A stretch of 64,000 bases of DNA from Ricordea florida (Eukaryota > Cnidaria > Anthozoa > Corallimorpharia > Ricordeidae), in assembly GCA_949710005.1 (NCBI GenBank), contig OX453280.1, positions 13,988,258-14,052,257 on the forward strand. The letters are read 5' to 3'. Positions 9,356 to 64,000 of this stretch are shown here, piece after piece. A program made the position numbers and the translations under genes. The notes beneath the pieces are model-generated. The model worked only from the letters and a program-made list of their open reading frames with translations. It was not told the origin of the DNA and ran no database searches. How positions within the stretch are numbered: position 1 is the stretch's first letter; each line of letters opens with the position of its first letter.

Positions 9356-9357
9356 CC

Positions 9358-11295: not shown

Positions 11296-11302
11296 TGCAT
11301 AA

Positions 11303-13603: not shown

Positions 13604-14009
13604 ATGGCGAGTATAGCGATCATGCTTGGAGGGGCAGTACTCAATGCAACAGCCTTCATTGGTGGGAATTATATAGCAAAGACGCTTAGTGGCTCATCGT
13701 CCGCTGATCTCCAACTCGAAAGAGAGAGGCATGACAAAGCAATGGAGAAGTACCAGAAAGATTACGCTGAGTACCAGGAGAAGAGGCTGGCTTATATTGA
13801 CTTTATGAATAGGAAGAAGGGCGACGCAAACCAGGCCTCTGAGAACATATCAAAGACGGATGAAGCGCTGAAATTGTACAGTCAAATGGGTAATCCTCCC
13901 AAGTTCTCTGACTATTACCGACCGAATTAGATCAAAGAATGGAAGAAATGGCTTATGTCTCTGGCGGTATGTTAGCCTTGGGATATCTCACCAGCAAGTG
14001 GCTATAATG
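13604..14009 (+). pseudogene. Conserved small Polinton protein, 3'-end frameshift
   Basis: The P3 homologue at 59,738-60,139 is 133 residues. Here the frame ends after 108 residues at YYRPN, but a neighbouring frame continues the homologous C-terminus, a second hydrophobic stretch ending near SKWL, up to the TAA at about 14,005. One base has been lost near 13,929. The N-terminus is hydrophobic and Gly/Ala-rich (IAIMLGGAVLNATAF), followed by a coiled-coil-like Lys/Glu segment with HDKAMEKYQ. The function is unknown; it is a likely membrane-associated particle component. Its stop overlaps the start of the next gene. Confidence 0.75.
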
Positions 14010-14252
14010 GCGGACTATGTGACAGATAATACAATGACTCCCAATGAATATATCCGTGTGGTAAGTTTAAGGGCTAAACAACTCATATTCGGAGCCAAGC
14101 CTCTTATAGAATGGAAAGGTGATTTTGATCCAATAGCCATTGCCAAGAGTGAAATGAAGCAGCGCGTTTTACCAATGGCTATAGTGAGAAAGATCCCAGG
14201 TCACCGCGATGAGATTTGGAACATCCAGGACATGAACATACGAGACTACTGA
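14007..14252 (+). CDS. RNA polymerase subunit Rpb6-like protein
   Basis: Eighty-one residues from the ATG at 14,007, which overlaps the preceding stop. The sequence follows the conserved core of Rpb6/RpoK/omega: a Thr-x-x-Glu-Tyr start (MTPNEYIRVVSLRAKQL, residues 10-26), a Gly-Ala-Lys-Pro step, then DPIAIAKSEMKQRVLP and an IVRKIPG hairpin, ending in a short WNIQDMNI strand. Cellular Rpb6 has an acidic N-terminal extension that is absent here; viral versions are often short. In cells the subunit clamps the largest RNA polymerase subunit. Known large DNA viruses encode one; I know of no Polinton that does. It is not at the matching site in P3. The assignment is by eye. Confidence 0.7.
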   Translation: MADYVTDNTMTPNEYIRVVSLRAKQLIFGAKPLIEWKGDFDPIAIAKSEMKQRVLPMAIVRKIPGHRDEIWNIQDMNIRDY

Positions 14253-14267
14253 AACTAACTTAGAAGC

Positions 14268-15235: not shown

Positions 15236-15241
15236 ATATAA

Positions 15242-15421: not shown

Positions 15422-15427
15422 TCTAAA

Positions 15428-16060: not shown

Positions 16061-16061
16061 C

Positions 16062-16074
16062 ATCTTAAAAGGAC
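16062..16074 (+). promoter_or_regulatory. Upstream motif ATCTTAAAAGGAC
   Basis: Lies 18 bases before the ATG at 16,093 and fits the shared (A/G)NTTAAAGG pattern. Confidence 0.45.
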
Positions 16075-16092
16075 GCAGGAGTCGTACCAAAT

Positions 16093-16695
16093 ATGGATGG
16101 TTATAACAGAATCTATCCCGCATTACCTCCAACAGCACCTCCTCCTGATGGTGTGTCTTTCAGGTTACAGAAATGCTGTGAAGCCTTGAACACTCTAAAA
16201 ACCGAATTGAAGCACTACGAGACTGTACTCAAAAAGTACAACCGGTCCAAAAACGCGCTCATAAACGCAAGCTCGACCTGTGGTATCCTGTCTTGTATTT
16301 TGGCGGCTGGAGGTTTAGGTACATCTTTGAGTGGAGTTGGAATTGTGGCAGCTATACCCTTGGGTGTTACAAGTGGAATACTTGTCTGTACTTCCATAGC
16401 GTGTGAACAAATCTCCAAGAGTCTGGCCAAGAAAGCGGTCAAGCACCAAAGTACCGTTACGCTAGCCAAAGCCAAAATAAATACAATCGAGGATCTGGTG
16501 TCCAAGGCGCTTAGTGATAATAAGATATCTGACGAGGAGTTCTCCATAATAATCGAGGAGCTCAAGAAGTTCGAGAAGCTAAAGGCTGAGATCCGACTAA
16601 AGGCTCAAAAAAGCTCAATGAAGGGGGACGATCATGTGGCCTTGAGACAGAGTGTCCGAGAAGAAATACTCAAAGAACTCAAAGGAAGGTCATAA
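16093..16695 (+). CDS. Conserved Polinton protein with coiled coil and membrane segments (200 aa)
   Basis: The N-terminus MDGYNRIYPALPP is almost the same as that of the P3 homologue at 58,081-58,677. It is followed by a coiled-coil helix (about residues 28-55), a Gly/Ala/Ile-rich hydrophobic stretch (about 63-100) that could span the membrane twice, and a second coiled coil containing KISDEEFSIIIEELKKFEKLK. This bundle-membrane-bundle plan suggests a membrane-remodelling or virion-internal protein. No known enzyme motif is visible. The frame is intact. Confidence 0.75.
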   Translation: MDGYNRIYPALPPTAPPPDGVSFRLQKCCEALNTLKTELKHYETVLKKYNRSKNALINASSTCGILSCILAAGGLGTSLSGVGIVAAIPLGVTSGILVCTSIACEQISKSLAKKAVKHQSTVTLAKAKINTIEDLVSKALSDNKISDEEFSIIIEELKKFEKLKAEIRLKAQKSSMKGDDHVALRQSVREEILKELKGRS

Positions 16696-16722
16696 CCATA
16701 ACGTACGATAAGACTTACTATT

Positions 16723-16765
16723 GATTTAAACACTATAACCCTTCTACCCAAACAATGGATAGAAG
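16723..16765 (+). promoter_or_regulatory. Motif plus stem-loop upstream of large conserved gene
   Basis: GATTTAAACACTA at 16,723-16,735 fits the shared motif. Next to the ATG, 16,741-16,765 can fold (CTTCTACCC / GGATAGAAG, one mismatch). Confidence 0.4.
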
Positions 16766-18315: not shown

Positions 18316-18364
18316 TACCAAGAAATTGGAATCGATTATTCATTTATCTCCTAGTGAGTATACC

Positions 18365-36000: not shown

Positions 36001-37535
36001 CCCGTCGCTTCACTGAAAGAATTCTTGACGTTGAAAGGCGAATCAAGGTCCGTAGAAGAAATTCCTTCAAACGAGCTCAATTCAGTTCATGAGTGAATTT
36101 GTCCGGTTGCAGTGGGAAAGAAGGAAAACAAAGATTATGAGCCAAGTTCGCTGCGTTCTCTCTTTCGCAACGGTTATTTGAATAAAAAAGCTACGGATTC
36201 AGCATCTCAAAAGAAGTGGTGTTTGAAAAAGCAAGAGCGGCATTAAACTGATCAAAACAAAAAGGTAATTTTACATTGTATTTCCCGTACACAAGACATT
36301 CCTGAGTCATTCACGAGTCGTTTTAAAACGTTTTTAACTGTCTTTGGTTCTTATACTTCTAGCGACATTTCCAACAGTGTTTAAAGTAGAATTTTCCAGT
36401 TCGTGCAATGTTTGTATCATTTTAGAGAAGTAAATTTTGAACGCATTTTTAACTTGACTGTCATGTTTATTCGGTATGCTCCAAAATAAAGCCTGCTAAG
36501 TGCGTTTTGCACCTTGTTGTGGTATCTTGATTTTTCTAGCCCAGCGTGATTCATGATCAGTTAGTAGTATTTTGTAAGGAGTAAATCTCAGTACCTAAAA
36601 AATAAACAAATTACTTCATGGTTAGTTCGCCCGAACCATTTTTCTTCACTCGTTGTGAAGAAAAGTAAACTCACACGTTTGCTGCGCTCACTCGTTCGTT
36701 TTCTATTCTTCACAACTCGTGAAGAAAAATCGTCCGCCCTCACTAACCATGAAGTAATCTCTACAGTCATAGCGGTTTTGGAGGAAAAATTTTCTTCCTA
36801 CAAGTTTTCAAGCGTTTTTGGAGGGACATAAGCATAAAGCTGAGTGTCTATTTTTCCTTTGTTAAAGAGCTGCCCAGCTGCTTTTGGTGTTGCTTTAAAA
36901 CTATTATAATTTTGCTGACCAGGTAATGGTTCTTCCGTTGAGTCGCGAGCTAGATGTTTTTTTTTTTGACGATTTATTTGAGCTATCGAATCTTCTTTAA
37001 GTAGTTGCGTACACCAGGCGTATTTAATAACTTTAGTGACAACATTTTCAATGTGTGAGGAGCTCCGCTTTTAGGCTTGCCTAAATCTATTTAATATTTA
37101 TTATTTAACTGAGAAGTCTGCTATTTTTAATCCAAGTGTAGTGATTTGTTTCATTATTTGATATTAGTAAGTTAATTACACGTTCGTCATCACCTTCGAA
37201 TTTTTTACTAATCCCTAATCGGTATACATATCCAACATCCTTCTTCTTAACTTCATCGTTATATCCAAAAACATTAACTACAAGTTTGTTCTGCCTTTCA
37301 AATCTGTCAATCTGCGTTAAAGGTGTAGGAAACTCAATACCAGTCCAATCAAAGTTCTCTGAATTAGCTGTCATTTGTTTGTTTAACCTGGTCATTACGG
37401 TGGTTACAGCCCATTTGAAGCACTCATGATCATTCTTATTGTTTACATTTATTATCGCTTCCTTTTTAGCTATTTCCTCTGGTAATGGTAAATATGAGCT
37501 ACCTCGTAAAGGCTCGAATTGATTTACATGAAATT
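33079..37535 (-). pseudogene. polB: Truncated Polinton family B DNA polymerase (P2)
   Basis: Minus-strand pieces at 37,105-37,530, 35,209-35,345, 34,336-34,908, 33,995-34,435 and 33,142-33,627 follow the order of the P1 polymerase: N-terminal domain, C2H2-like finger, VYADFECY (near 35,150-35,180), the HCHIS...DHCH zinc module (near 34,780-34,860), the LYGW palm motif (near 33,920-33,950) and DTDSL (near 33,240-33,260). The 1.7-kb element splits it at 35,352. Both ends are missing: the N-terminus is cut near 37,535 against a Helentron-like repeat and the C-terminus near 33,079 against the satellite. It is AT-rich and closer in style to P3 than to P1. Several frameshifts are present. Confidence 0.9.
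35353..37094. mobile_element. ~1.7-kb unclassified mobile element, copy 2 (in P2)
   Basis: Near-identical to 11,833-13,557, in the same plus-strand orientation. TA is present on both sides (35,351-35,352 and 37,095-37,096). The flank CTTACAATGAT resembles the P1 flank CTTACATTAT, hinting at a target preference. Confidence 0.8.
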
Positions 37536-52557: not shown

Positions 52558-52987
52558 TCCTCGCGAAGCGAGGCCGAAGGCGGAGCGTAGCGAGGTTACT
52601 AATTCCTCGCGAAGCGAGGTTACTAATCGTGTCGGTTCCGGTCAGACCACGTGGCTCGCAAGCCCGAGTAAATCGAGCCGGGAGTTTTTATATATGTATA
52701 TATATATATTTATATATATGTTTATATATATCTATATTTTAAAGGTGTCCGTTCGCAGGCCAGGTTACCTGGCAACATTACTCCATGTGAAATTCCGACA
52801 TTACGAATTCCTTGAATGATGTTTTGAAAATAATGCGAATTTTGTGGAAACCGATTTCACTCGTCTTGGAAGTACATCCCAGCAAGAAGATCTCCGACAT
52901 ATACAAGAAAGAATGGTGAGAGATCGTCGTCGAGTAAGTTTGAATGCCGCAAAAAATGCACACGGGAAGCGGCGAGTAGATGTAAAA
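52558..52987 (+). mobile_element. Helentron-like element, copy D, cut by P3
   Basis: Begins with the same CCTCGCGAAGCGAGG hairpin, partly repeated in tandem (52,558-52,625), and runs through the microsatellite and GGTGTCCGTTCGCAGGCC region. It breaks off inside the 104-codon frame region at about 52,985, where P3 sequence starts. Confidence 0.7.
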
Positions 52988-53500
52988 AGCGGGCTCCAGG
53001 ACAATTTAGCTTGTAAGCTAATTTTGACAAAGATTTTGTCTGTGATTTCAAACAATCAAAGATTTAACAAAGTACATGTCGGATGATCGGGTGGGCGGGC
53101 GGGTACCTCTGTGAAATTGTTAAGTTTCTGATAATCAAATAAAGAGTGTAGACAGATTGTTACTAAGTCGACACCAAGCCGATGTGAAGCTGATGTGAAA
53201 TTGGCATGAGGTTGGCCCCAACATACAAAGATTTTGTCGGCGATTTCACGCAATCAAAGATTTAACAAAGTACATGTCGGATGATTGGGTGGGCGGGTGG
53301 GTACCTCTGTGAAATTGTTAAGTTTCTGATAATCAATGAATAGTGCGGATAGGCTGCCGCAAAGCCATCGCCAAACCGCCACCAAGCCTATATGAAATTG
53401 ACACGGAGTCAGCCCTAACATAGTCTATATGAAATTGATGTCGGGTTCCAAGACAATTTAGGTTTTGCCTAATTTTGACAAAGATTTTATAAAAAAATTG
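52988..53500. repeat. Candidate P3 left terminal region with ~198-bp tandem repeat
   Basis: Two 111-bp copies (53,028-53,138 and 53,226-53,336), period 198, starting CAAAGATTTTGTC. A third partial copy lies near 53,446-53,495, where a CCA(A/G)GACAATTTAG block recurs from 52,996. This may be the TIR, but the partner is outside the window. Confidence 0.55.
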
Positions 53501-53513
53501 AATTCTAAAAACA

Positions 53514-53526
53514 GATTTAAAGGATT
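53514..53526 (+). promoter_or_regulatory. Upstream motif GATTTAAAGGATT
   Basis: Lies 18 bases before the ATG at 53,544. Confidence 0.55.
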
Positions 53527-53543
53527 AAATTGATTTGATAAAG

Positions 53544-53912
53544 ATGGAACAGAAAAACGTGAAAGAATTAAAACTCCTCGCCAAAGAGAGGAGGATACCG
53601 AGATATTATAGGCTGTGTAAAGAACAACTTATTGAAGCTTTAGAAAATTTTATAACTCCTCATATAAAACAAACAAAAACTAATAAGTATAAGTGTATTC
53701 ACGATAAATTAAAATATTACTGTATGTTATGTGAAGGATCACAAATATGTGAACACAAAAAACAGAAATCGCGTTGTATTGAATGTAATGGCGGCAGTAT
53801 TTGTGAGCATAAACGGAGGAGGTATCAATGTAAAGAATGTAATGGGAGAGGGATATGTATTCATGGGAAACAAAGATGGTTTTGTAGAATTTGTGAAAAA
53901 CAAGATGAATAA
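53544..53912 (+). CDS. SAP-like plus zinc-repeat protein 1 (122 aa)
   Basis: The N-terminal 40 residues (KELKLLAKERRIPRYYR, then KEQLIEALE) look like a SAP/Rho-N helix-extension-helix DNA-binding module. The rest has repeats Cys-x-His-x6-Cys-x2-Cys (ICEHKKQKSRCIEC, ICEHKRRRYQCKEC, ICIHGKQRWFCRIC). It is the first gene inside the left end, with a paralogue next to it, and resembles the terminal zinc-repeat gene of P1. The ATG at 53,544 is chosen because the upstream in-frame codons lack ATG. It is likely a nucleic-acid-binding regulator; the role is inferred. Confidence 0.7.
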   Translation: MEQKNVKELKLLAKERRIPRYYRLCKEQLIEALENFITPHIKQTKTNKYKCIHDKLKYYCMLCEGSQICEHKKQKSRCIECNGGSICEHKRRRYQCKECNGRGICIHGKQRWFCRICEKQDE

Positions 53913-53919
53913 AAAATTA

Positions 53920-53951
53920 TGTTATATAACCTAATAAATGGCTACATAACA
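53920..53951. terminator. 3' stem-loop with AATAAA in loop
   Basis: TGTTATATAACC pairs with GGCTACATAACA (two mismatches). The loop TAATAAAT contains a polyadenylation hexamer. It starts 8 bases after the stop of the first zinc-repeat gene. Confidence 0.65.
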
Positions 53952-53974
53952 AAAATAAGGTGTAGAATAAAATT

Positions 53975-53987
53975 GATTTAAAGACGT
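53975..53987 (+). promoter_or_regulatory. Upstream motif GATTTAAAGACGT
   Basis: Lies 22 bases before the ATG at 54,010. Confidence 0.55.
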
Positions 53988-54009
53988 TCAATATTTAACA
54001 AAAATTAAA

Positions 54010-54396
54010 ATGGAACAATTAAGATATTTATATACTTATGAATTAAAATTAATGGCAAAAGATCTAGAAATTAAAGGAAGATCAAAAATGAGTAAAAAAG
54101 AGCTAATTGATGAAATTAAAAAATTTACAGATGTGGATATTGATAAGTTAATTGAAAAAGTTACCACAACTAGCAAAATTATTTGCGATCATGGGAAATT
54201 AAAAAAATTTTGTAATGATTGTAATAGGTATAATTGTAAGCATAATAGATATAAATATCGCTGCAAAGAATGTGGGGGAACACAAATATGTAAACACAAT
54301 AATCAAAAACAACAATGTAAAGAATGCGGCGGATCACAAATATGCGAACACGGCAAACAAAAAGCTTCTTGTAAAGAATGTAAAAATAAAAATTGA
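54010..54396 (+). CDS. SAP-like plus zinc-repeat protein 2 (128 aa)
   Basis: Tandem paralogue of the preceding gene. The N-terminal SAP/Rho-N-like module (ELKLMAKDLEIKGRSKMSKKEL) resembles the repeats at the N-terminus of the P1 polymerase (for example KLGIQGYAKMRKTEL), which suggests module shuffling. It is followed by about four zinc repeats (ICDHGKLKKFCNDC, NCKHNRYKYRCKEC, ICKHNNQKQQCKEC, ICEHGKQKASCKEC). The frame is open. It is probably a nucleic-acid-binding protein. Confidence 0.72.
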   Translation: MEQLRYLYTYELKLMAKDLEIKGRSKMSKKELIDEIKKFTDVDIDKLIEKVTTTSKIICDHGKLKKFCNDCNRYNCKHNRYKYRCKECGGTQICKHNNQKQQCKECGGSQICEHGKQKASCKECKNKN

Positions 54397-54407
54397 TTTA
54401 AAGAAAA
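54395..54407 (+). promoter_or_regulatory. Upstream motif GATTTAAAGAAAA
   Basis: Lies 23 bases before the ATG at 54,431, directly at the stop of the preceding gene. Confidence 0.55.
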
Positions 54408-54430
54408 AATATAAAATATAAAATAAAACA

Positions 54431-55073
54431 ATGAAAAAATTAAATATTAAATATTTAAACAATAAGAAGCTTAATATTTGCGATTTTATAGAAGAAATAA
54501 AAGAAAACTTATTAAAAAATTTAACAAAAAATAGGGAATATATAATTTATTATAATCAAAAAATTACTTTTTATTATCCAATAAATTTTGATGTAGAATA
54601 TTATAATACAAATTATGATTTTGAACATTATATTTATTTTGGTGAAGAAACAAATTTTGGAGTTAGTGGTATTAACACTAGTAAATTTGCGAAAAAAATT
54701 TTAAAAATAGCTAATTATGATTTTATTGAAAATGAATATGAATATGAATATGATCCACATTATGGTATGATTATTGCAAACGGAATGGAAATTGGTCATT
54801 TTTATGAAAATGATGTTTATCTTGCTTATCATGATGATGAATGTAAAATTGATGTATGTATTTAAAATTGATGTATTTGATAAAAATTTTATAATAAAAA
54901 AATTACATGTAAGTGTTGATTTAAGTGAATATAAGATTGAGCATAAAGAGTTATTTTACAAACCATTACATGATGAATTAATGACAGTAGCATGGCACCC
55001 ATCTAGGTATTTAGATTGGTGTATTGATTTTGAAGAGTTAAGAGATTTGAAAGAAAGATGGGGCGGAGATTAG
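54431..55073 (+). pseudogene. WHP-motif gene split by a 19-bp duplication
   Basis: The first frame (54,431-54,865, 144 residues, Asn/Tyr-rich) stops just where a second frame (ATG 54,852 to 55,073, 73 residues) takes over. TAAAATTGATGTA occurs at 54,844-54,856 and again at 54,863-54,875. A 19-base duplication shifts the frame, so this was probably one gene. The second part ends in VAWHPSRYLDWC-D-E, the motif also found in the P1 relic at 2,416-2,508. Two separate, overlapping genes remain possible. The function is unknown; the motif recalls giant-virus proteins. Confidence 0.55.
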
Positions 55074-55087
55074 TTAAAAAATAATTA

Positions 55088-55119
55088 TGTTATATAACCC
55101 AATAAATGGTTACATAACA
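55088..55119. terminator. Stem-loop with AATAAA in loop, between convergent genes
   Basis: TGTTATATAACC pairs with GGTTACATAACA (one mismatch). The loop CAATAAAT carries the polyadenylation hexamer. It is nearly the same sequence as 53,920-53,951 and serves the 3' ends of the WHP and penton-like genes. Confidence 0.7.
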
Positions 55120-55124
55120 AAAAT

Positions 55125-55754
55125 TTATTTAAATCTTAAACTAAAAGTTACGGATTGCCCATTTAGATAAAACCTTTTCCAATTAGCGTCTAAAATGGTT
55201 AAATCAAAGTGATTAATCAAGTTATCGTATTTTCTAATTGGAATAGATGGGTAATCTTTTGATGGAATGTTTGCTAGCAATTGAGATGGTTGTATTTTTG
55301 TAAGATCTCCATTTTTACCTTTATTTGTGTATGACATTCTATTATCAACTATACTGCATAAAAGTCTCAAAGGTTCTTTTATAGTTATATCTATTTGTTG
55401 TATTTTAAATAAAATCTCCGGCACCCCTAAAGAATTTTGCAAACCCTGGGTAAATTTAATGTTAATTGTTTTATTGTTGATTATGTAAGCAAAATTATCT
55501 CCGATAATCATTGTTATATTTTTACCCTTTTCGCTGAGCTCAATTAATATTTTTATATCATTTATGGAATATGTTCCTGGATTAAATATTACTAAAGACT
55601 TATCTTGTTCATCAGTTATTTTTTCTTGATTCTTTAAAGTTATTAGTCTTTTTGTTTTTATATTGCAATCTAAAAGTTGTAATTCACTAACGTGTTTAAT
55701 TGGAGGATCTAAATAAACCCTAGTTTCAGAATAATACATTGTAATGCTGAACAT
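55125..55754 (-). CDS. Penton-like minor capsid protein (single jelly roll)
   Basis: A 209-residue, fully open homologue of 15,428-16,060, sharing SETRVYLDPP, LQ-LGVPE, LLANIPSKDYP and the NHFDLTILDANW...FSLRF ending. In P1 this gene sits between the zinc-ribbon and 200-aa genes; here it lies beyond the large 546-aa gene, so the order has changed. It diverges from the Rpb7-like gene across 51 bases. The fold is inferred from the family. Confidence 0.82.
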   Translation of the reverse strand: MFSITMYYSETRVYLDPPIKHVSELQLLDCNIKTKRLITLKNQEKITDEQDKSLVIFNPGTYSINDIKILIELSEKGKNITMIIGDNFAYIINNKTINIKFTQGLQNSLGVPEILFKIQQIDITIKEPLRLLCSIVDNRMSYTNKGKNGDLTKIQPSQLLANIPSKDYPSIPIRKYDNLINHFDLTILDANWKRFYLNGQSVTFSLRFK

Positions 55755-55805
55755 ATTTTTGATTAAATTATATTAGTTTTTAGATTATTTATAAAAATTA
55801 AGAAA
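55755..55805. promoter_or_regulatory. Divergent promoter, penton/Rpb7-like genes
   Basis: The gap contains TTTTTAGATTATTTATAAA. Read on the minus strand it gives AATCTAAAAACTAA, the motif form seen before other minus-strand genes. Confidence 0.45.
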
Positions 55806-56267
55806 ATGGAAACTAATATACTTCAAAGGCGTATATATCTTGAACCTAAATATTTAGATAAAAATATTATGAACCATCTTTTTAAAAAACTTAATAAAGT
55901 AACTTTTAACCAATTTGATAAAGAATATGGATATATTATTTCAGTAAATCGTATAATAAAAATTTTAGATAATGAAGATACTTTTTTTGTTTTAAGATTT
56001 GAAGCAAAAACATATAAACCAAAAATTAAACAAAAAGTTGATGGTGTAGTATGCGGGGTTTATGAAGAAGGTATTTTTATTAAAGTTTTTGAAAAAATGA
56101 AGATTTTAATTCCGCATATTTATTTGAAAGATTATAAGTTTGATGAAATTTTTAACACATACGAAAATAATAATAACAAAATTGGAATGGGAGATAAAAT
56201 TAATGTTGAAATAAAAGCAGTTAAATATGATAAAAATGAACTTAGTTGTATTGGTTTTTTAGTTTAA
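55806..56267 (+). CDS. RNA polymerase subunit Rpb7-like protein
   Basis: One hundred and fifty-three residues, fully open. The layout follows Rpb7/RpoE1: an N-terminal tip domain beginning with a basic-hydrophobic RRIYLEPKYLDKN strand, EYGYIISVNRI at about 41-51, a conserved Phe-x-Ala-x-Thr-Tyr-Lys-Pro turn, and then an S1/OB-like domain (DGVVCGVYEEGIFIKV, ILIPHIYL, GDKINVEI). The cellular partner of Rpb4-Rpb7 binds emerging RNA and is needed for initiation. Several large DNA viruses encode an Rpb7 relative. I know of none in a Polinton. It is plus-strand, between two minus-strand virion genes. Recognition is by eye from the pattern. Confidence 0.72.
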   Translation: METNILQRRIYLEPKYLDKNIMNHLFKKLNKVTFNQFDKEYGYIISVNRIIKILDNEDTFFVLRFEAKTYKPKIKQKVDGVVCGVYEEGIFIKVFEKMKILIPHIYLKDYKFDEIFNTYENNNNKIGMGDKINVEIKAVKYDKNELSCIGFLV

Positions 56268-56274
56268 ATATTTT

Positions 56275-56310
56275 GTTTTGATTACATCTTTAGATTTTTA
56301 TAATCAAAAC
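56275..56310. terminator. Stem-loop between convergent Rpb7-like and 546-aa genes
   Basis: A perfect 10-bp inverted repeat (GTTTTGATTA / TAATCAAAAC) with a 16-base loop, right between the convergent stop codons. The right arm ends 2 bases before the 546-aa gene's stop. Confidence 0.65.
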
Positions 56311-56311
56311 A

Positions 56312-57952
56312 TTATCGAAATAAAAACCAAGATAATAATCCCCCAGCAAGCATTAAAACAATAAGAGTATTTTGGTGAGAAGATGTTTCTGTATTACTAA
56401 CTTCATCGTTATTGTTTGATTCATTGATATTTAATTTAGGTTTTATATTTTTACTAGGCCGAGCATTAGTATTTAATAAAACCTTTGATGTTCCCAAACT
56501 ATGAGTTATTCCAACATTTTTTGTTTCAACATTTATTGAATTATTTGCTCCAAATTTCATACCTTTTGTTGCTGTTTGCAGATAATTATTGTATCCAATA
56601 ACGCTTTCTGTATTTATAATTAAATTGCTTGGTATCAACAAAACACCAGGAGCTATAGCAAAATCAAGCCGCGCTTTTGAATCATTAAGCGTTTTTTGAT
56701 ATCTTTCATTTGAATTTGCAATATCATTTTTAATCACACAGCTTTCAAATAAATCTATGAAATTTTGCTGGGTATTAAATGCACTTCCTCCATTACCAAT
56801 AATTGAACTCCTAGTATTAACTTGTGCTCCCAAAACGCAATAAACAAAAGCTTCAACCGATCTATTTATTCTTCCTAATCCAGCATTTGTTAATCCATGT
56901 CCAGATTTGGGCATAAACCAAGCATATTGAAAATCTACAAAATGATCATTTCGAAGCATAGATATTAAATTTGCATCTATTTTTTTACCGCCATAATCAG
57001 CAAATTTATTTGTTTCACTTGGCCAAATATTCGCATCAGGATCATTAGGATGTATAATTCTTACGTTTTGATTTCCTCCTCCTATTGCTTGCGCACTACC
57101 ACCTCCGGGAGGTATGTATCCTTTTCCATAATCAATGAATACATCTCCCACGCCATGGTTTGCACCCCCCTTAAATCTAAAATCGGCTAAAGGTTTATTC
57201 CATCCCTTATAATCTTGATTATTACTTAAACCAAATTCTCCACATAAACGATTATAAACATTTTTGTTGTATGGATTATTTTTTAAAGAAAAAGTTTTTT
57301 CTTCAGGAAATGGTACTGATAATTCATATAATATTCTTCTTATTGTAAAGTAAATGTGAAATATAAAAAAACTTCTAATAACTTTTGGGTAATTAAAACT
57401 TTCAATTAAACTTACACCACATCCAGATGTTGCGCACCAAACCGCCATGTTTAACTGTTGTGGCCAGTGATTAATATTTGGTTTACTCAACCAAGCTCTA
57501 GCTTCTTTACCGCTAGTAAGTCCTACAGTTTGATTTTTAAATACATTTTTCATTGGTGAGGGTGTAGTGAAATGGTCTTTTTCTGAAACATATATATCTA
57601 GATTGATTAAAGTTTTTGTTACATTATGAGGAAGTTCATTAAATTTTAATCCAGCCATTGGATATGTTTCTTTTGTAAATAATAAACTTTTTGGGAAAGA
57701 TCCAACTTTAGTTTTATTTTCTGGAAACGAATCAACCTTGGTCTTCTTTTCTGGCCCTAAATCGTGCCACAATAAAATTTTTAATATTGGGTTCATGTCA
57801 TCAGTCCATGTTTTCCCAGTAGGATCATCATCAGACATAACTGTTATCCCATTAACTTTCCATTTAATATATCCGCCAAATGAATCATTAATAAATGTAA
57901 ATTTATCAAGGTTCGCTTTTGGGTATCGATTTTTGAAATCATCTAATAACAT
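56312..57952 (-). CDS. Large conserved Polinton protein with C-terminal anchor (546 aa)
   Basis: An intact homologue of the broken P1 gene 16,766-18,315. The conserved N-terminal block (DDPTGKTWTD, about 42-51) precedes the Cys-containing AVWCATSGCGVS (about 170), FTIRRILYELSVP, a Gly-rich middle, YAWFMPKSGHGLT and INTESVIGYNNYL. A Pro/Asn linker and a hydrophobic tail (last about 20 residues) follow. The size and single tail anchor suggest a membrane-tethered structural or surface protein. No enzyme signature is visible. Confidence 0.8.
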   Translation of the reverse strand: MLLDDFKNRYPKANLDKFTFINDSFGGYIKWKVNGITVMSDDDPTGKTWTDDMNPILKILLWHDLGPEKKTKVDSFPENKTKVGSFPKSLLFTKETYPMAGLKFNELPHNVTKTLINLDIYVSEKDHFTTPSPMKNVFKNQTVGLTSGKEARAWLSKPNINHWPQQLNMAVWCATSGCGVSLIESFNYPKVIRSFFIFHIYFTIRRILYELSVPFPEEKTFSLKNNPYNKNVYNRLCGEFGLSNNQDYKGWNKPLADFRFKGGANHGVGDVFIDYGKGYIPPGGGSAQAIGGGNQNVRIIHPNDPDANIWPSETNKFADYGGKKIDANLISMLRNDHFVDFQYAWFMPKSGHGLTNAGLGRINRSVEAFVYCVLGAQVNTRSSIIGNGGSAFNTQQNFIDLFESCVIKNDIANSNERYQKTLNDSKARLDFAIAPGVLLIPSNLIINTESVIGYNNYLQTATKGMKFGANNSINVETKNVGITHSLGTSKVLLNTNARPSKNIKPKLNINESNNNDEVSNTETSSHQNTLIVLMLAGGLLSWFLFR

Positions 57953-57977
57953 TTTATTCTTTGTGTTTCATATAATA

Positions 57978-57990
57978 TGATCTTTAGATT
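57978..57990 (-). promoter_or_regulatory. Upstream motif AATCTAAAGATCA (minus strand)
   Basis: Lies 25 bases before the ATG at 57,952. Confidence 0.5.
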
Positions 57991-58080
57991 AAGAATAAAA
58001 TGTAAAGTCATATCATTCGTTGGTATTTCTAATTCCTGCAAAACAATTACAACCAACATCGGTTCTCTCATATGAAATTT

Positions 58081-58677
58081 TTAATGACCTGGATTTGTTA
58101 GTTCTTTTAATAGATTTTCGCGCACTTCTCTCCTTATCACAGACATATCCAAGTTTTTTTCCGAGTCTTTTCTAAATTTTTGTCGTATTTCTTGTTTTAG
58201 TTTTTGAAACTTTTCCAACTCCGCTAAAATTATAGAAAATTCTTGATCGGATATAACATTATCTTTCAAAGCTTTTGAAACTAAATCGTTAATGGTGTTT
58301 AATTTTGATTTTGCAATTGCGGCGGTTTGTTCGTGTTTACTAACTTTATGAGAAAGTTTTTTTGATGCAATTCCAAATCCAACAGATAATCCCCCAAAAA
58401 CTCCACCCACAACCCCTAAAGGAATCCCAACAATAGCTCCAAAACCAGTAAGAGATGTACTCAATCCACTCGCGGATAGAATAACTGAAATCATTCCGCC
58501 AGAAACACTAATTTTTGTACATATGGTTCTTGCTCTATTATATTTTTTTCTTACTTCTTCGTAATGTTTAATTTCTTTCTCAAGATTTTGTAATACTTCA
58601 CTCGATTTTTGTAGCCTGAAATTAATAGGATCTGTATTATTGGGTAATACAGGGTAAATTCTATTGTATTCATCCAT
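58081..58677 (-). CDS. Conserved Polinton protein with coiled coil and membrane segments (198 aa)
   Basis: Homologue of 16,093-16,695. It shares the YNRIYP-LP start, coiled coil, Gly-rich hydrophobic centre (about residues 55-100) and a C-terminal coiled coil with VISDQEFSIILAELEKFQKLK. The frame is intact, which supports a conserved structural role across both elements. The function is unknown. Confidence 0.78.
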   Translation of the reverse strand: MDEYNRIYPVLPNNTDPINFRLQKSSEVLQNLEKEIKHYEEVRKKYNRARTICTKISVSGGMISVILSASGLSTSLTGFGAIVGIPLGVVGGVFGGLSVGFGIASKKLSHKVSKHEQTAAIAKSKLNTINDLVSKALKDNVISDQEFSIILAELEKFQKLKQEIRQKFRKDSEKNLDMSVIRREVRENLLKELTNPGH

Positions 58678-58699
58678 ATTGTATTTTACTACTCAACAT

Positions 58700-58712
58700 G
58701 AAATCTTTAGAT
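58700..58712 (-). promoter_or_regulatory. Upstream motif ATCTAAAGATTTC (minus strand)
   Basis: Lies 22 bases before the ATG at 58,677. Confidence 0.6.
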
Positions 58713-58720
58713 TGGCTTTG

Positions 58721-59701
58721 TTACTTTCTCTTCTTTTTTATACTTTCCACAAAATATAGAACCGCGGCCATTATCAAAAGCCAAGCATTCTTTCCTAAAA
58801 ACCCAATAACTTCACCCGCTGTTTTGAATAAAAAGCTAACTATTGCACCAACCATTCCTGGCAATATTTCACCTAGTTTTTTACCTATAGTTTTCAATCC
58901 TTTTCCCAACCCCCTACCTAATGTTGATAAACCTTTAGAAAGATTAGAAACTATAACTCCAATTACTAAAGCAACAGCGCTTAAAACTGCAAAAGCAGTA
59001 AAACCATGCTTTTTGAAGATATCTTTCACACGTTCTCTCAAAGACATTGTTTCTTGGATTCTTTCTCTTTCAGCAACATCGTTTGCTATATCTTCATCGT
59101 TTTCTATAACTTCTGTATTTAAATTTTCAATCTCCGCCTCTTCTTCTGCGGTTTTATTGGTTTTATTATCAAGAACTTTTTTTCTTTCAAGTCTTTCATT
59201 TTGTTTTTCTTTTTTATTCGCAATTTCTGTATCGAGTTGTTCAACTATTTCTGATCTACTTGGGCCTAAATCATCTTTTAATTTTCCAGGTCCAAGTTTT
59301 TCTTTTATCTCACCTGTTTTTTTATCATATCTTCTAAACTCATCATCACCCGTATGAACATATATTCCACCCTTTGGCCCTTCAATTGCTGGTAATTCTA
59401 TTCCACCACGAATGCGTTGAAAAAATGAAAGAAATCGTTTCATTTTTGCTCTTGGCCGCGCTTTTTTTATAGCTTCTTCTGCGCTTTCTAATTCCTTATT
59501 TTTATTTGCTAATAATTTGCTTTTTTCATTGAATGAATTTTCTTGCTCTTCATCTTCACCATCAAAAGCGGGATTTTGAAAAGTACTAGTAGATGTGGCT
59601 GTAATTATATTATTAGCAACTTCTTCATCATCTTCATCATCTTCATCAGCATCATCGTCATTATCTCTTGATAAATCTTCTAATGGTATATCTTCCGCCA
59701 T
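58721..59701 (-). CDS. Conserved Polinton membrane/coiled-coil protein (326 aa)
   Basis: Homologue of 14,288-15,235. It has a very acidic N-terminus (Asp/Glu run about residues 13-27), a Lys/Glu coiled-coil middle (about 150-215), and the strongly conserved C-terminus with VIGVIVSNLSKGLS, ILPGMVGAIVSFLFKTAGEV and FLGKNAWLLI. The C-terminal 100 residues are among the most conserved between the two elements. The Rpb6-like gene that precedes this gene in P1 is missing here. Confidence 0.82.
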   Translation of the reverse strand: MAEDIPLEDLSRDNDDDADEDDEDDEEVANNIITATSTSTFQNPAFDGEDEEQENSFNEKSKLLANKNKELESAEEAIKKARPRAKMKRFLSFFQRIRGGIELPAIEGPKGGIYVHTGDDEFRRYDKKTGEIKEKLGPGKLKDDLGPSRSEIVEQLDTEIANKKEKQNERLERKKVLDNKTNKTAEEEAEIENLNTEVIENDEDIANDVAERERIQETMSLRERVKDIFKKHGFTAFAVLSAVALVIGVIVSNLSKGLSTLGRGLGKGLKTIGKKLGEILPGMVGAIVSFLFKTAGEVIGFLGKNAWLLIMAAVLYFVESIKKKRK

Positions 59702-59721
59702 GATTTTTTACTAATCAGTAA

Positions 59722-59734
59722 GAAATCTTTAAAC
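59722..59734 (-). promoter_or_regulatory. Upstream motif GTTTAAAGATTTC (minus strand)
   Basis: Lies 20 bases before the ATG at 59,701, overlapping the end region of the preceding gene. Confidence 0.6.
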
Positions 59735-59737
59735 GAA

Positions 59738-60139
59738 CTATAAAAATTTACTAACTGCGTAACCTAAACCTAACATTCCAGCTCCAACATATACCATTTC
59801 TCCCGTTTTTTGATCATCGTTTGGTTTGTAATAATCGGCGAATTTTGGTTCATGCATTTGACTATACAATTCAAAAGCTTGGTCTGTAGCCGACATATTT
59901 TTTGTTGCTTGATATTTATTTTCCTTTCGCTGCATTTTCCAATCAAGCATTTTTTGTCTATTTTTCTGATATTCTGCCCAATCTCTTTGATATTTTTCCA
60001 TTGCTTTATCGTGTCGTATTTTTTCTGTATCAACATTTTTTTTATTAAATAAATATTTTGTAAGAATATTTCCACCAGTAAATGCTGATGCATTTAATAT
60101 TGCGCCGCCAACCATCATTGCTATTGATACTAACGCCAT
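59738..60139 (-). CDS. Conserved small Polinton protein (133 aa)
   Basis: Intact homologue of the frameshifted P1 gene at 13,604. It has a hydrophobic Gly/Ala-rich start (AMMVGGAILNASAFTGG), an RHDKAMEKYQRDWAEYQ coiled-coil segment, a YYKPNDDQKTGE linker and a final hydrophobic stretch. The ATG overlaps the TAA of the preceding gene, a tight arrangement also used in P1. Confidence 0.78.
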   Translation of the reverse strand: MALVSIAMMVGGAILNASAFTGGNILTKYLFNKKNVDTEKIRHDKAMEKYQRDWAEYQKNRQKMLDWKMQRKENKYQATKNMSATDQAFELYSQMHEPKFADYYKPNDDQKTGEMVYVGAGMLGLGYAVSKFL

Positions 60140-60357
60140 TATTTTGGTAAAATCTTTTGATCCTCTAAATATGTTTTAAGATACATACTTCCGGATAATA
60201 CAGCTACCCATTTTGCATAATTTGCAATACTTGAGGATGGATCGTTCAAAAATGATTCTTTCATTACTTTTTTAGCAACATAGCCAACTCCAGCTCCTAA
60301 TCCAATAAGTGTAGCTGAATCAGTTACAGTTTTCACAAGTTTGTTTTCGCTTGACAT
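60139..60357 (-). CDS. Small membrane protein (72 aa), ENKLVKTVTDSA family
   Basis: Close homologue of 11,303-11,524, sharing the ENKLVKTVTDSA start, two hydrophobic stretches, a NDPSSSIANYAKWVAV block and KTYLEDQKILPK at the end. The function is unknown. Confidence 0.82.
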   Translation of the reverse strand: MSSENKLVKTVTDSATLIGLGAGVGYVAKKVMKESFLNDPSSSIANYAKWVAVLSGSMYLKTYLEDQKILPK

Positions 60358-60378
60358 AATTTTTTACTACATCATTAA

Positions 60379-60391
60379 GAAACCTTTAGAT
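60379..60391 (-). promoter_or_regulatory. Upstream motif ATCTAAAGGTTTC (minus strand)
   Basis: Lies 21 bases before the ATG at 60,357. Confidence 0.6.
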
Positions 60392-60402
60392 GGCTTTAGT
60401 AC

Positions 60403-60834
60403 TTATTCCATTCCTAAAGATTTTGGAGTTGCAGAAAATGGTATCTTTGCCGGCCGTGATATTTGCGGAACTTGCGATAAATCAACTATCCTATTTTTAT
60501 ATTCAGTGTATCCATCTCTAGCTTTTTCCCGGTATCTCATAAAAAGATCAAATGCTGTAAACCCCAATCCAACAACGGATAAAACAGTAGTAAAAGATAA
60601 CTCTGGAAGCCATGATTTCGCTTCATTATTTGACTTTTCTTGATTATACTCTCTTTCTGTATTTTCCTCACGTTTCATCTCCCTAGCTAATGCTTCTTTT
60701 GCTTTTTTATTATATTCTGCCAATTTCTTACCAGCCGCAACCTTTTTAGGATCTTTTTCCCTCTTTTTAGTATCTTTATTTTCCGGTGCAGGATCGGCTG
60801 TAATTTGCTCAACTTGTTCATTTTGTTCAGACAT
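60403..60834 (-). CDS. Small single-pass membrane protein (143 aa)
   Basis: Homologue of 10,942-11,295, longer in the Lys/Glu-rich N-terminal part. One hydrophobic stretch (about residues 84-100, TTVLSVVGLGFTAFDLF) follows SWLPELSF. The start at 60,834 is chosen over an earlier in-frame ATG because it matches the P1 start (MSEE/MSEQ) and sits right after the upstream motif. Confidence 0.75.
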   Translation of the reverse strand: MSEQNEQVEQITADPAPENKDTKKREKDPKKVAAGKKLAEYNKKAKEALAREMKREENTEREYNQEKSNNEAKSWLPELSFTTVLSVVGLGFTAFDLFMRYREKARDGYTEYKNRIVDLSQVPQISRPAKIPFSATPKSLGME

Positions 60835-60852
60835 TATTTTACATATAATTAA

Positions 60853-60865
60853 GAAACCTTTAAAC
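60853..60865 (-). promoter_or_regulatory. Upstream motif GTTTAAAGGTTTC (minus strand)
   Basis: Lies 18 bases before the ATG at 60,834. Confidence 0.6.
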
Positions 60866-60868
60866 GGA

Positions 60869-61381
60869 TTAGTGAACAGTATCATAACCGCTATCAGCCT
60901 GCTCAGTAGTCTGTTCAGTTATAACTTGTTGATTTTTGTTGAATTTTATGTGCTTAGCAACCTGAAATAACCCGCTAGCAAGTGCAGCCAGTCTTCCCGC
61001 TTTTAATGCTAATAGCCCAACAATGTTTGTTAATTCACGATTAACCAAATCATCATTCTTCAAATCAGAACAAAGAGATTCTATATCATCAACCGGAACT
61101 AAATATGAAATAAGTTTGGAAACTAATTGTAGGGATGAATCTACCAATCCTCCATTAATTTTTTTACCCATTACCGCTTGGTAACGATTAAAATATTTTT
61201 CTACATCACGTTCCGATAATTTTTTTACATCACCCAGACTCATTTCAACCCCCAAATATTCCTTTGTTGTTCCGAGCGCTGCTAGAATTGCGAGTGATTC
61301 TTGTTTGATTTCAACTTCATTATCTTTTCCCTGTGGTTGTTCATCTTTTACTTCTTCAATGTAATCTTCAATATTTACCAT
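60869..61381 (-). CDS. Conserved small Polinton protein (170 aa)
   Basis: Intact form of the P1 gene that carries a stop at 9,682. It has an acidic N-terminus, then SLAILAALGTTKEYLG (about residue 30), DVEKYFNRYQAVMGKK and a helical C-terminal half ending DTVH. The start at 61,381, just after the ATPase stop, is preferred because P1 has the same spacing. An upstream ATG at 61,417 would overlap the ATPase. The function is unknown. Confidence 0.75.
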   Translation of the reverse strand: MVNIEDYIEEVKDEQPQGKDNEVEIKQESLAILAALGTTKEYLGVEMSLGDVKKLSERDVEKYFNRYQAVMGKKINGGLVDSSLQLVSKLISYLVPVDDIESLCSDLKNDDLVNRELTNIVGLLALKAGRLAALASGLFQVAKHIKFNKNQQVITEQTTEQADSGYDTVH

Positions 61382-61386
61382 CTTTG

Positions 61387-62013
61387 TTAAATCACTTCGG
61401 GTATCTCTAAATAGCAATTAAATGGATGGCGTAAAGATAAACATAACCTAGAATATTTTTCAGTTTTCAGGAGTTGAACAAACTTTTTGCCCAATTCATA
61501 ATCCAAATCACCACCATAATCTTCGAAAAACATTTTCATACCTTTCTGCGATGGATTATGAAAAGTAACAACGCAGGCTACATTTTCCCTGAATGGTTTT
61601 GCTATTGATGTTAATTGTTGGGTTAAAACCCACATTGATAATCCATGATGTCTTCCGGAGAATGCTAAATCTATAAATTTATTAGATCTTTTCTTCAGAT
61701 CGGCGGATACGGCGCAATCATCTAAAATTATTAGTGTATTGAGTCCAGAGAATAAAGTTTGACAATCATTTAACAATTCATTAATCTCATCTACATTACT
61801 TGCATCGGGTGATAATACAAAGAATCTCTTGTCCCCACGGGCAAAATTATGATATGTTTTATTTTTAGAATAAGTTGGGCAAATTAAAACAATGTAATCA
61901 AAAACTTTTCGGAAAGGACCTCGAAGCTGTTCAATTAGGTACTTTGTTTTCCCACAATTTGTTGGTCCAGTTATAATACAATGAAATGGGATTTTATCTC
62001 GTAAATCTTCCAT
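61387..62013 (-). CDS. Genome-packaging ATPase (HerA/FtsK type)
   Basis: A 208-residue P-loop ATPase, homologue of 8,726-9,355. Walker A is GPTNCGKT (about 14-21), Walker B is TLIILDDCA (about 91-99), and it has WVLTQQLTS. The start MEDLRDKIPF matches the P1 start MNELRDKIPF. It would pump DNA into the particle. Confidence 0.93.
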   Translation of the reverse strand: MEDLRDKIPFHCIITGPTNCGKTKYLIEQLRGPFRKVFDYIVLICPTYSKNKTYHNFARGDKRFFVLSPDASNVDEINELLNDCQTLFSGLNTLIILDDCAVSADLKKRSNKFIDLAFSGRHHGLSMWVLTQQLTSIAKPFRENVACVVTFHNPSQKGMKMFFEDYGGDLDYELGKKFVQLLKTEKYSRLCLSLRHPFNCYLEIPEVI

Positions 62014-62035
62014 GATTTTTTGTATCATAACATTA

Positions 62036-62047
62036 TGTTTTTAGATT
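62036..62047 (-). promoter_or_regulatory. Upstream motif AATCTAAAAACA (minus strand)
   Basis: Lies 22 bases before the ATPase ATG, overlapping the capsid gene's 3' end region. Confidence 0.45.
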
Positions 62048-62048
62048 C

Positions 62049-63296
62049 TCAGTACTTAATTGATCTCAAACTTAAATTCATTATTTCCATCATTGCATCA
62101 GCAACAACAAACATATAACATGTTATAGTTCCTGATCCGCTTTGTTTCCTTTTTATTTCTATTTTTACGCCATCGTGTGTATTATTTAGAGCTAGTCCTC
62201 CACCGTGAATACTATTATCTGGGTGAGTTCTCGTATCAACCCAAAGAGCAAACTTGTCCGTGTAAAAATCCCCTTCTTTCAATGAAATTTGTAAACCATC
62301 ATCTCTATGAAAGCGTTTTTTCGCGGATTCCCAAAGATCGGATGAAATCATTCCTCTAGAGTATATTCTATTTGGCACACCATCAACATCAATTTCTACT
62401 GAAGATATACCTGGATTATAAAAATTTTCAGAATCCCTTGCTCCTGCAGCTTGAGGTAATAAAAACAAAAATAATACCCCAGTCATTGATCTTCTCGGTA
62501 AATTAATATGCTGATTAATAACACCATCACCACCAATGGAAAATGTAAAAGTTTTGTGTAAGGTAATATTTTCATAAAAGAATCCTTTACCAACTTGATA
62601 TGTTGATTGTGCCTCGCGGGCTAAGTATTCGCTTGAAATTGAAGAATATTCTAATTCTAAGTTTTTTATTGAATATGATGGTGTTTTAGTTGTATCGGAA
62701 TAAATAAGAATATTATTAATTGGGGCGAGTGTAATCTCAAATATTAAATGATTTTCTAATGCTTTTGGATAAAAAACCCCATGATCGTTTAATATTGGGT
62801 GGTTTATTGGTATTCTATACTTTGATCCGTGAACATTAGCGAGAATTACTTCCTTTGTTTCTTTTTGAGTTTTCTTTGCATCGCCCGCATTTGTTCTAAG
62901 TTTTCTAATGTTTTCGGAAGAAATACCTTGTTTTAATTTATCTTCTCGCTCTTCCTCAGTTAAAAATAAATCGCGATATGTTTGAAATAAATCATATCTT
63001 TGAGTATCTTGCAATGTTTCTCCTCCAAAAAGAACTTTTAATCTAGATACAAGATTGCTCGCTAAATTATTAACAACCGTATTATTTGCATGACCCTCAA
63101 CATCTAAATCAAACAAAAGAGATACACTTCCAGGCACAATCACTAAATTCTCAGAAAGTTTTGGAATATTTATATATAATGTTTCGCCCGGACTGGCTGA
63201 TGATGGATTTAGAGTAATTCTATTTAATGTTGATTCTGCCTTCAAACCAAAGGGTTCTCGTGGAATTCTGTTTGGATTAATTTTTTCAGACGTCAT
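62049..63296 (-). CDS. Major capsid protein (double jelly-roll type)
   Basis: Four hundred and fifteen residues, fully open, and homologous along its length to 7,484-8,719. Blocks shared include PGSVSLLFDLDVEGH, VLFGGETLQDTQRYDLFQTY, LRTNAGD, NHPILNDHGVFYPKALEN and GDFYTDKFALWVDTRTHPDN. It precedes the ATPase as in P1. The jelly-roll assignment comes from Polinton/adintovirus family knowledge. Confidence 0.9.
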   Translation of the reverse strand: MTSEKINPNRIPREPFGLKAESTLNRITLNPSSASPGETLYINIPKLSENLVIVPGSVSLLFDLDVEGHANNTVVNNLASNLVSRLKVLFGGETLQDTQRYDLFQTYRDLFLTEEEREDKLKQGISSENIRKLRTNAGDAKKTQKETKEVILANVHGSKYRIPINHPILNDHGVFYPKALENHLIFEITLAPINNILIYSDTTKTPSYSIKNLELEYSSISSEYLAREAQSTYQVGKGFFYENITLHKTFTFSIGGDGVINQHINLPRRSMTGVLFLFLLPQAAGARDSENFYNPGISSVEIDVDGVPNRIYSRGMISSDLWESAKKRFHRDDGLQISLKEGDFYTDKFALWVDTRTHPDNSIHGGGLALNNTHDGVKIEIKRKQSGSGTITCYMFVVADAMMEIMNLSLRSIKY

Positions 63297-63318
63297 TGTA
63301 ATTTATAAGATACTTTGT

Positions 63319-63331
63319 CTAACCTTTAAAC
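63319..63331 (-). promoter_or_regulatory. Upstream motif GTTTAAAGGTTAG (minus strand)
   Basis: Lies 23 bases before the capsid ATG and overlaps the stop of the upstream small gene. Confidence 0.6.
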
Positions 63332-63510
63332 CCCTTCACACTATTATTCTTTAATTTTTCAATATGTTTTAATAAGCCCTCTCTCGCATCGGGGATTAAA
63401 ATCATAATATTAAAAATTTTATCACCATCTTCCATATATAGAATTTTTTTTCTAATAATTTTTTTCATAAGATTAATTTGATATTCACTAAATTTTGTTT
63501 CCTCCACCAT
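63319..63510 (-). CDS. Small unrecognised gene (63 aa)
   Basis: Sixty-three residues, Lys/Ile-rich and probably helical, between capsid and integrase genes. It has no P1 counterpart, where the gap is 26 bases. The upstream sequence TTAACAAAGTATCTTATAAATTA is repeated almost exactly before the capsid gene. This suggests a duplicated promoter and supports the gene being real. Confidence 0.5.
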   Translation of the reverse strand: MVEETKFSEYQINLMKKIIRKKILYMEDGDKIFNIMILIPDAREGLLKHIEKLKNNSVKGFKG

Positions 63511-63542
63511 TTTAATTTATAAGATACTTTGTTAATTTTTAA
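63511..63542. promoter_or_regulatory. Divergent promoter, integrase/63-aa gene (P3)
   Basis: The AT-rich gap holds TATCTTATAAATTA on the minus strand, matching the sequence before the capsid ATG, and TTAATTTTTAAATG facing the integrase. Confidence 0.5.
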
Positions 63543-64000
63543 ATGATGTCAAAAATATATTATTCAGCTGGGGGGTATTGGAAAGGATATACCGCGATTT
63601 CAAAATTAGCCGAAAAGGCGAAAGTAAGTGAAAATGAGGCAAAACAATGGCTGCAAAAACAGGCAATATGGCAAATCTATCTCCCAGCCCCAAAGTATAT
63701 ACCTAGACCGCATTGGATTGTGGATAAACCAAATCAGATTCACCAAGCAGATTTATTATTTTTACCGCATGATAGAGTTGGAAGAAAAACATATAAATAT
63801 GCGTTAGTTGTGGTTGATATCGCCTCGAGATATAAAGATGCGGAGCCATTAACCTCAAAAGAAAGTCGAGAGATATCAGAAGCTTTTACAAAAATATATT
63901 CTAGAAGGTTAAAATATCCCAAAACATTAATGGTTGATCCAGGAAAAGAATTTATGGGCGAAGTTAGTAAACTCATGAATTACCATAATGTGGGTATACA
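63543..64000 (+). CDS. Retroviral-type integrase, partial (runs off window)
   Basis: Open from the ATG at 63,543 to the window edge, about 152 codons. It aligns with the P1 integrase from its N-terminus: GYWKGY, then KAKVSENEAKQWLQKQAIWQ, the first catalytic Asp in HQADLLFLPHD and the second in MVDPGKEFMG. The catalytic Glu lies beyond the edge. It diverges from the capsid side as in P1. Confidence 0.92.
   Translation, partial: MMSKIYYSAGGYWKGYTAISKLAEKAKVSENEAKQWLQKQAIWQIYLPAPKYIPRPHWIVDKPNQIHQADLLFLPHDRVGRKTYKYALVVVDIASRYKDAEPLTSKESREISEAFTKIYSRRLKYPKTLMVDPGKEFMGEVSKLMNYHNVGI

Follow-up and report, generated by a model that had tools for sequence, protein, structure and literature searches.

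The window analysed here, a 64,000-nucleotide stretch of the Ricordea florida genome, carries two related Polintons, P1 and P2. P2 is about 16 kb long and extends from window position 52975 to the equivalent of 68928, with its right terminal repeat outside the window (C9:14056602-14057190). The features on which the analysis rests, including the rpb6 gene of P1, are as follows:

13998..14252, plus strand: rpb6 of P1, 84 codons from a GTG (ATG at 14007), RPABC2 match
52970..53558, plus strand: left terminal inverted repeat of P2, 589 nt, matching its inverted counterpart in locus L009 at 98.98% identity
53494..53501, plus strand: early-type promoter motif AAAATTGA, 47 nt upstream of the ATG at 53541
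53541..53912, plus strand: accessory protein, an N-terminal Rho_N-like segment and then Cys/His-rich repeats (Rho_N 7.1e-5, below cut-off, scanned from 53535)
54010..54396, plus strand: second Rho_N / Cys-His-rich accessory protein (Rho_N 1e-6, above cut-off)
54431..54865, plus strand: accessory protein, no Pfam family above cut-off
55125..55754, minus strand: virion-type protein divergent from rpb7, 49% identical to P1 15428-16060, late-type motif at -30
55806..56267, plus strand: rpb7, RNA polymerase stalk subunit Rpb7, 153 aa (Pfam, PDB sequence, fold, copies, selection)
56274..56311, no strand: palindromic 3' stem-loop, TGTTTTGATTA-16 nt-TAATCAAAACA, between the stop codons at which rpb7 and the 546-aa gene converge
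56312..57952, minus strand: 546-aa virion-type protein, no family, 54% identical to P1 17092-18315, late-type motif at -36
58081..58677, minus strand: 198-aa virion-type protein, no family above cut-off, 53% identical to P1 16093-16695, motif at -34
58721..59701, minus strand: 326-aa protein, 51% identical to P1 14288-15235, motif at -32
59738..60139, minus strand: 133-aa protein, whose P1 homologue directly precedes rpb6 there
61387..62028, minus strand: packaging ATPase (A32-like), Pox_A32 5e-11, above cut-off
62049..63296, minus strand: major capsid protein, putatively of the double jelly-roll type, Capsid_N 0.0011 (19.1 bits, below the cut-off of 24), 60% identical to P1 7484-8719

Apart from rpb7, P2 is an ordinary, full-length Polinton. 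Its start is probably AGTAGATG at 52975, and a 5-bp CGGCG, read by eye, flanks it on both outer sides; Polinton target site duplications are 6 bp. Terminal inverted repeats, capsid protein and packaging ATPase are joined by a 325-aa rve integrase (PF00665, 1.4e-8, above cut-off) and a long DNA polymerase-like gene, the set of traits seen in Polinton/Maverick (adintovirus-like) elements. The latter gene is a 1295-aa open frame (52% to its P1 homologue) in which Endonuclease_7 is the only Pfam family above cut-off and no DNA polymerase family matches at E 0.1; from the motif FTDTDS and its position, we tentatively take it to be the protein-primed DNA polymerase B. No adenovirus-type protease match was found among the ORFs scanned, and Pfam searches of the larger ORFs of P2 recognised neither Rpb4 nor a catalytic polymerase gene. 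Among the accessory genes, the 53541..53912 product is related to P1 18788-19183, and of seven further short loci, two (L003 and L007) have the 54431 gene near rpb7, whereas it was not seen in the remaining five. The 55125..55754 product has no Pfam family, and penton-like is our guess at its nature.

The rpb7 frame runs over 153 codons from ATG to TAA on the plus strand, between two minus-strand virion-type genes (55125-55754 and 56312-57952), as the preliminary description had it. That description had also read a two-part Rpb7 pattern in the product, and both parts score above the Pfam cut-offs in hmmscan: SHS2_Rpb7-N (PF03876) at residues 10-54 (27.1 bits; cut-off 24.8), followed directly by a C-terminal S1/OB domain (PF00575) at residues 71-147 (34.6 bits, 2.6e-8; cut-off 22). 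The GYI strand and Tyr-Lys-Pro turn singled out there are found at residues 42-44 and, as TYKP, at 69-72; G42 and P72 are among the seven columns that are invariant when 15 Polinton sequences are aligned with 18 prokaryotic ones (17 labelled archaeal, one labelled bacterium). A tip-domain profile match (E 0.01) is present in 21/21 scanned copies and an S1 match in 20/21; the former rules out a generic S1 protein. In a phmmer search of all PDB sequences, human RPB7 ranks top (residues 6-152 aligned, E 1.2e-7), and it is again human Pol II Rpb7 that heads the matches to a 21-copy profile (2e-8). Among the 23 PDB sequences matched by that profile up to E 10, the best 18 are all Rpb7/Rpo7/RpoE and none is a poxvirus or ASFV chain. 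Identity is 24% to Pol II Rpb7, 10-11% to the vaccinia protein and 15% to that of ASFV (17% for a tip-only chain), and scans of viral contigs found no relative. The NCBIfam RpoE models also match (3.4e-9 and 6.6e-8) at scores far under their naming cut-offs (NF006333, 36.6 bits against 143; TIGR00448, 32.3 against 124.2), so the rpoE equivalog score is not reached. Because these models name prokaryotic proteins, their low scores argue against a prokaryotic orthologue and not against a divergent relative. The match to Rpb7 is full-length and colinear in both sequence and predicted fold, the fold prediction being biased towards Rpb7 by the prokaryotic Rpo7 sequences in its alignment; the model made without them is poor (pLDDT 49.8). 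The tip loop is six residues short in all 15 Polinton rows relative to all 18 prokaryotic rows, and six residues shorter than in human RPB7 around human 'IGAGVIQPGRG'. A tip loop of cellular length is a common, not a defining, trait of Rpb7/Rpo7/RpoE. P2 thus encodes a genuine viral Rpb7 with a docking (tip) domain and an RNA-binding S1 domain.

Copies of rpb7 were sought in the window's own genome (538 Mb, 48 contigs), where 209 candidate places were found and 150 scored. At least 150 copies exist, at 63-100% identity; 148 of the 150 scored are free of stop codons, which excludes a chance origin of the frame. Among 28 copies read, one (L020) lacks the usual N-terminus. Related Polintons keep the gene in its setting: both neighbours are retained in 8/8 short loci, the window's own included, and the 546-aa gene, capsid, ATPase and integrase accompany rpb7 in 19/19 longer loci. 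In two of the latter (L037, L043) the divergent neighbour differs from the usual penton-like gene, and in L050 that neighbour was not seen. The median dN/dS of rpb7 is 0.33 (27 copies; 349 usable of 351 pairs), and 0.35 in 18 of the 19 longer loci, where the ATPase gives 0.06, the capsid 0.08, the integrase 0.11 (12 loci), the 58081 gene 0.15, the 546-aa gene 0.23 and the 60869 gene 0.27 (11 loci). The gene is therefore the fastest-evolving relative to the six others measured, at a dN/dS well below 1. Constraint is strongest in the N-terminal strand and helix (residues 1-25, pN/pS 0.15), the seven other segments ranging from 0.26 to 0.70, the last at residues 111-125. Together, these values indicate that selection preserves the rpb7 protein and, above all, the beginning of its tip domain.

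The stem-loop assigned to the 3' end of rpb7 is also a property of the family. A perfect stem of at least 9 bp (9-13 bp) follows the rpb7 stop in 29/33 distinct copies, against 1.5% of shuffles; these copies are related and thus not independent. In a weaker control based on score, the best of 30 shuffles attained at least the score of the observed hairpin in 13/28 copies. Only one other such hairpin occurs in 10.4 kb of P2.

The Rpb6 attributed to P1 is likewise borne out. Its best PDB match is Drosophila RPABC2 (Rpb6) at E 7.4e-11, over the conserved C-terminal domain, although it falls under Pfam's own cut-off (23.5 against 26 bits); RpoK models match at 2.2e-10, also below their cut-offs. 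The genome holds 378 candidate places for rpb6, of which 150 were scored and 144 lack a stop, giving at least 150 copies, and dN/dS is 0.25 (18 copies). In three further loci (L079-L081) rpb6 adjoins at least the gene of the P1 13604 type. Two related Polintons thus carry different small polymerase subunits, as first described, with at least 150 sites each and none shared among those listed. Across the 150 + 150 sites listed, the nearest rpb7-rpb6 pair is 41 kb apart and none lies within 20 kb. One shared element would pair most sites within 16 kb, so the two genes reside in different elements; their spacing is otherwise like chance (0 seen, 1.7 expected at random). Direct search of P2 and of parts of 19 rpb7 elements found no Rpb6. 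P1 also encodes a SLOG/DprA-like protein (18326-18730; YAcAr 3.4e-10) and a DUF5679 protein (15242-15421), neither of which was seen in P2.

Two kinds of promoter motif are found in P2. A late-type motif, T[CT]TA[AG]A[AG], lies 30-36 nt upstream of 7/7 virion-type genes tested in P2 (55125-63296). In the 19 longer loci it stands mostly 27-37 nt before the starts of virion genes: the penton-like gene (16/16), capsid (18/18), 58081 gene (19/19), 59738 gene (6/6), 546-aa gene (14/16) and 61387 gene (2/5), against 9-21% of shuffled upstream sequences. In the same loci it precedes neither rpb7 (0/18) nor the integrase (0/9), the 16 reverse-strand matches before rpb7 being those of the divergent gene. 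By eye, many P1 genes (7484-18315) are preceded by similar motifs, and the motif suggests an old element-wide promoter common to P1 and P2.

The early-type motif AAAATTGA precedes four non-virion P2 genes, the three accessory genes and the DNA polymerase gene, by 41-50 nt from the ATG, against 2.5% of shuffled upstream sequences. Besides the copy at 53494, the second accessory gene has one at 53969 (41 nt before it) and the third has one at 54389 (42 nt before it); in the right terminal repeat of P2, the copy that belongs to the DNA polymerase gene is 50 nt upstream of it. Since two of the four genes have their motif in the two copies of the terminal repeat, these are three independent cases. 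Further copies occur at 54845 and 54864, and none on the reverse strand from 52975 to 64000. The four genes carry the late-type motif too; upstream of rpb7 and the integrase of P2, neither motif is present. In the fetched loci, which include the window copy (L001), 11 of 18 occurrences of AAAATTGA[AT]TT lie 39-44 nt (one 62 nt) before an ORF, and 7 have no ORF start within 150 nt. The motif was picked after being seen, in AT-rich sequence. In the accessible part of PMC11788076, AAAATTGA is described as the early promoter motif of mimiviruses and pacmanvirus, reported in ASFV too, and as preceding transpoviron genes. Four of the 19 rpb7 Polintons (L034, L039, L044, L046) carry one more gene, oriented like rpb7 and placed between those of the 58721 and 59738 types (for example L044:4580-5401, minus strand). 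It is DUF2738 in L044 (PF10927, 9e-50) and is assigned by similarity in the others; in three of the four loci AAAATTGA lies 39-44 nt upstream of it.

Polintons are thought to depend on host transcription. From the findings above we infer, in agreement with the preliminary description, that this Polinton lineage manipulates transcription, and the data suggest that the P2 and P1 families modify a transcription machine that they do not themselves encode. The reading that we favour, at a probability of roughly one half, is that Polinton Rpb7 docks on host RNA polymerase II beside Rpb6, replaces the Rpb4/7 stalk and steers transcription. Under this model the conserved N-terminal tip would bind the enzyme next to Rpb6, Rpb7 would exchange into the stalk site in place of host Rpb4/7, and initiation, elongation or 3'-end formation would be steered towards the element's own genes. 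The P1 family might reach the same Pol II site through its viral Rpb6; the separation of Rpb6 and Rpb7 in sister families leads to the prediction that both act at one site. A different promoter would drive rpb7 itself, earlier than the virion genes or independently of them, which fits the lack of the virion-gene motif before rpb7 (0/18, against 18/18 for the capsid). Available sections of PMC13152212 describe the stalk as Rpb4/7 with 'its adjacent Rpb6' and report that a viroid uses Pol II without Rpb4/7 and Rpb6. The subunit table of PMC10881513 gives viral polymerases with Rpb7 and without Rpb4, those of ASFV and vaccinia, and according to PMC8950122 influenza polymerase binds RPB4 and so contacts the Pol II stalk. 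Against docking, the six-residue-shorter tip loop could weaken the hold on a cellular core, the ASFV-type C-terminal domain in Rpb4's place is absent from Polinton Rpb7, and divergence is more rapid in rpb7 (dN/dS 0.35) than in the capsid (0.08) and ATPase (0.06) genes. A more far-reaching version, which we regard as tentative and doubtful, is that two sister Polinton populations each captured one of two adjacent stalk-site subunits, never both in the listed copies, and, through exchange of a peripheral subunit, turn host Pol II into a virus-specific enzyme for the elements' own TYTARAR promoters, all without encoding a catalytic core.

The NCLDV-like early motif in P2 could point to another polymerase, and AAAATTGA makes a helper virus the main rival: an NCLDV-type polymerase would transcribe the Polintons, as it does virophages, with Rpb7 or Rpb6 as an adaptor for that enzyme. 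Such a reading would account for the four motif-bearing non-virion genes (three independent), for the 11/18 occurrences placed ahead of an ORF, for the identity of the motif with the early signal of mimiviruses and pacmanvirus, also reported in ASFV and located before transpoviron genes (PMC11788076), and for the 3' hairpin kept in 29/33 copies, mimivirus transcripts terminating at hairpins according to the available text of PMC4402537. We nonetheless consider it unlikely. In sequence and fold the protein resembles Pol II Rpb7 (24% identity) more than it does the vaccinia or ASFV proteins, P2 has two hairpins in 10.4 kb and not one per gene, no helper is known, and rpb7 itself lacks AAAATTGA. 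The motif was moreover chosen post hoc in AT-rich sequence, and 7/18 of its occurrences have no ORF start within 150 nt.

Alternatively, Rpb7 may have left the polymerase and now bind RNA on its own as an S1 protein, perhaps during packaging or in the handling of viral mRNA, as its place among virion genes, its faster evolution than the six other genes and its shortened tip loop would allow; the most conserved part is, however, the N-terminal tip-domain segment and not S1, and the subunit found in the sister family, Rpb6, lacks an S1 domain and is not known to have a role outside polymerases. We rate this reading below the helper polymerase. Less probable again is a decoy, in which Rpb7 shuts off host transcription, by sequestering host Rpb4 or by obstructing the stalk site, with no direct help to viral genes. 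No partner Rpb4 gene was recognised, the faster evolution of rpb7 would fit an arms race, and other viral factors touch the stalk, as influenza polymerase does in binding RPB4 (PMC8950122); in contrast, the element-specific promoter motifs suggest active use of a polymerase, and dN/dS is well below 1. Finally, Rpb7 is a universal cellular gene, and its capture as a functionless passenger, picked up by chance, is easy to imagine. This last reading is contradicted by the selection data and is very improbable: rpb7 has a dN/dS of 0.33-0.35, 148/150 scored copies are open, and Rpb6 shows a parallel value of 0.25.

P2 and its Rpb7 differ in several respects from the systems that they resemble. Relative to cellular RPB7 (human 2c35, yeast 1wcm), the tip loop is shorter by six residues and the gene is a single open frame carried by a Polinton, with at least 150 copies. 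ASFV D339L/vRPB7 and vaccinia Rpo18 are likewise virus-encoded and belong to polymerases without Rpb4, but these viruses encode the catalytic core (subunit table of PMC10881513), whereas no core was recognised in P2; vRPB7 also has an extra C-terminal domain that fills the place of Rpb4 (PMC10881513, in part), absent from Polinton Rpb7. Polinton relatives also include the yeast cytoplasmic linear plasmids, which have acquired a capping enzyme, a helicase and an Rpb2 gene of the Pol II type, as stated in the accessible part of PMC10328495, and their polymerase is described in an available portion of PMC6211774. These plasmids have catalytic subunits and have lost the capsid; in P1 and P2 only small docking subunits were recognised and the capsid is kept. 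Virus-encoded Rpb7 is thus known from NCLDVs with full polymerases, and Rpb7 or Rpb6 in Polintons was not met in the literature searched: no report was found in the open-access literature (most subscription journals lie outside that search), nor in the accessible portions of PMC11071308, PMC11071296, PMC12220804 and PMC11253617. If the reading holds, these elements, virus-like and present in numerous intact copies under selection, would represent a new route of polymerase take-over in which small docking subunits are all that is encoded of the enzyme. Polinton rpb7 and rpb6 also bear on the origin of NCLDV-type transcription, and gain of transcription genes by Polinton relatives has been used as a test of their origins (PMC10328495, accessible part).

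The window contains further repeats. Broken pieces at 33142-34908 (minus strand) are similar to the P1 and P2 DNA polymerase gene and probably represent a third, decayed Polinton. Immediately left of P2, 46411-52955 holds head-to-tail copies of an approximately 3.18-kb block (97-99% identity), and next to it, at 42.9-46.3 kb, 21-nt units form a long array. Segments 12382-13009 and 35926-36555 are nearly identical (99%); the former lies inside P1 between the 11524 and 13604 genes and is probably a later insertion of another repeat into that element.
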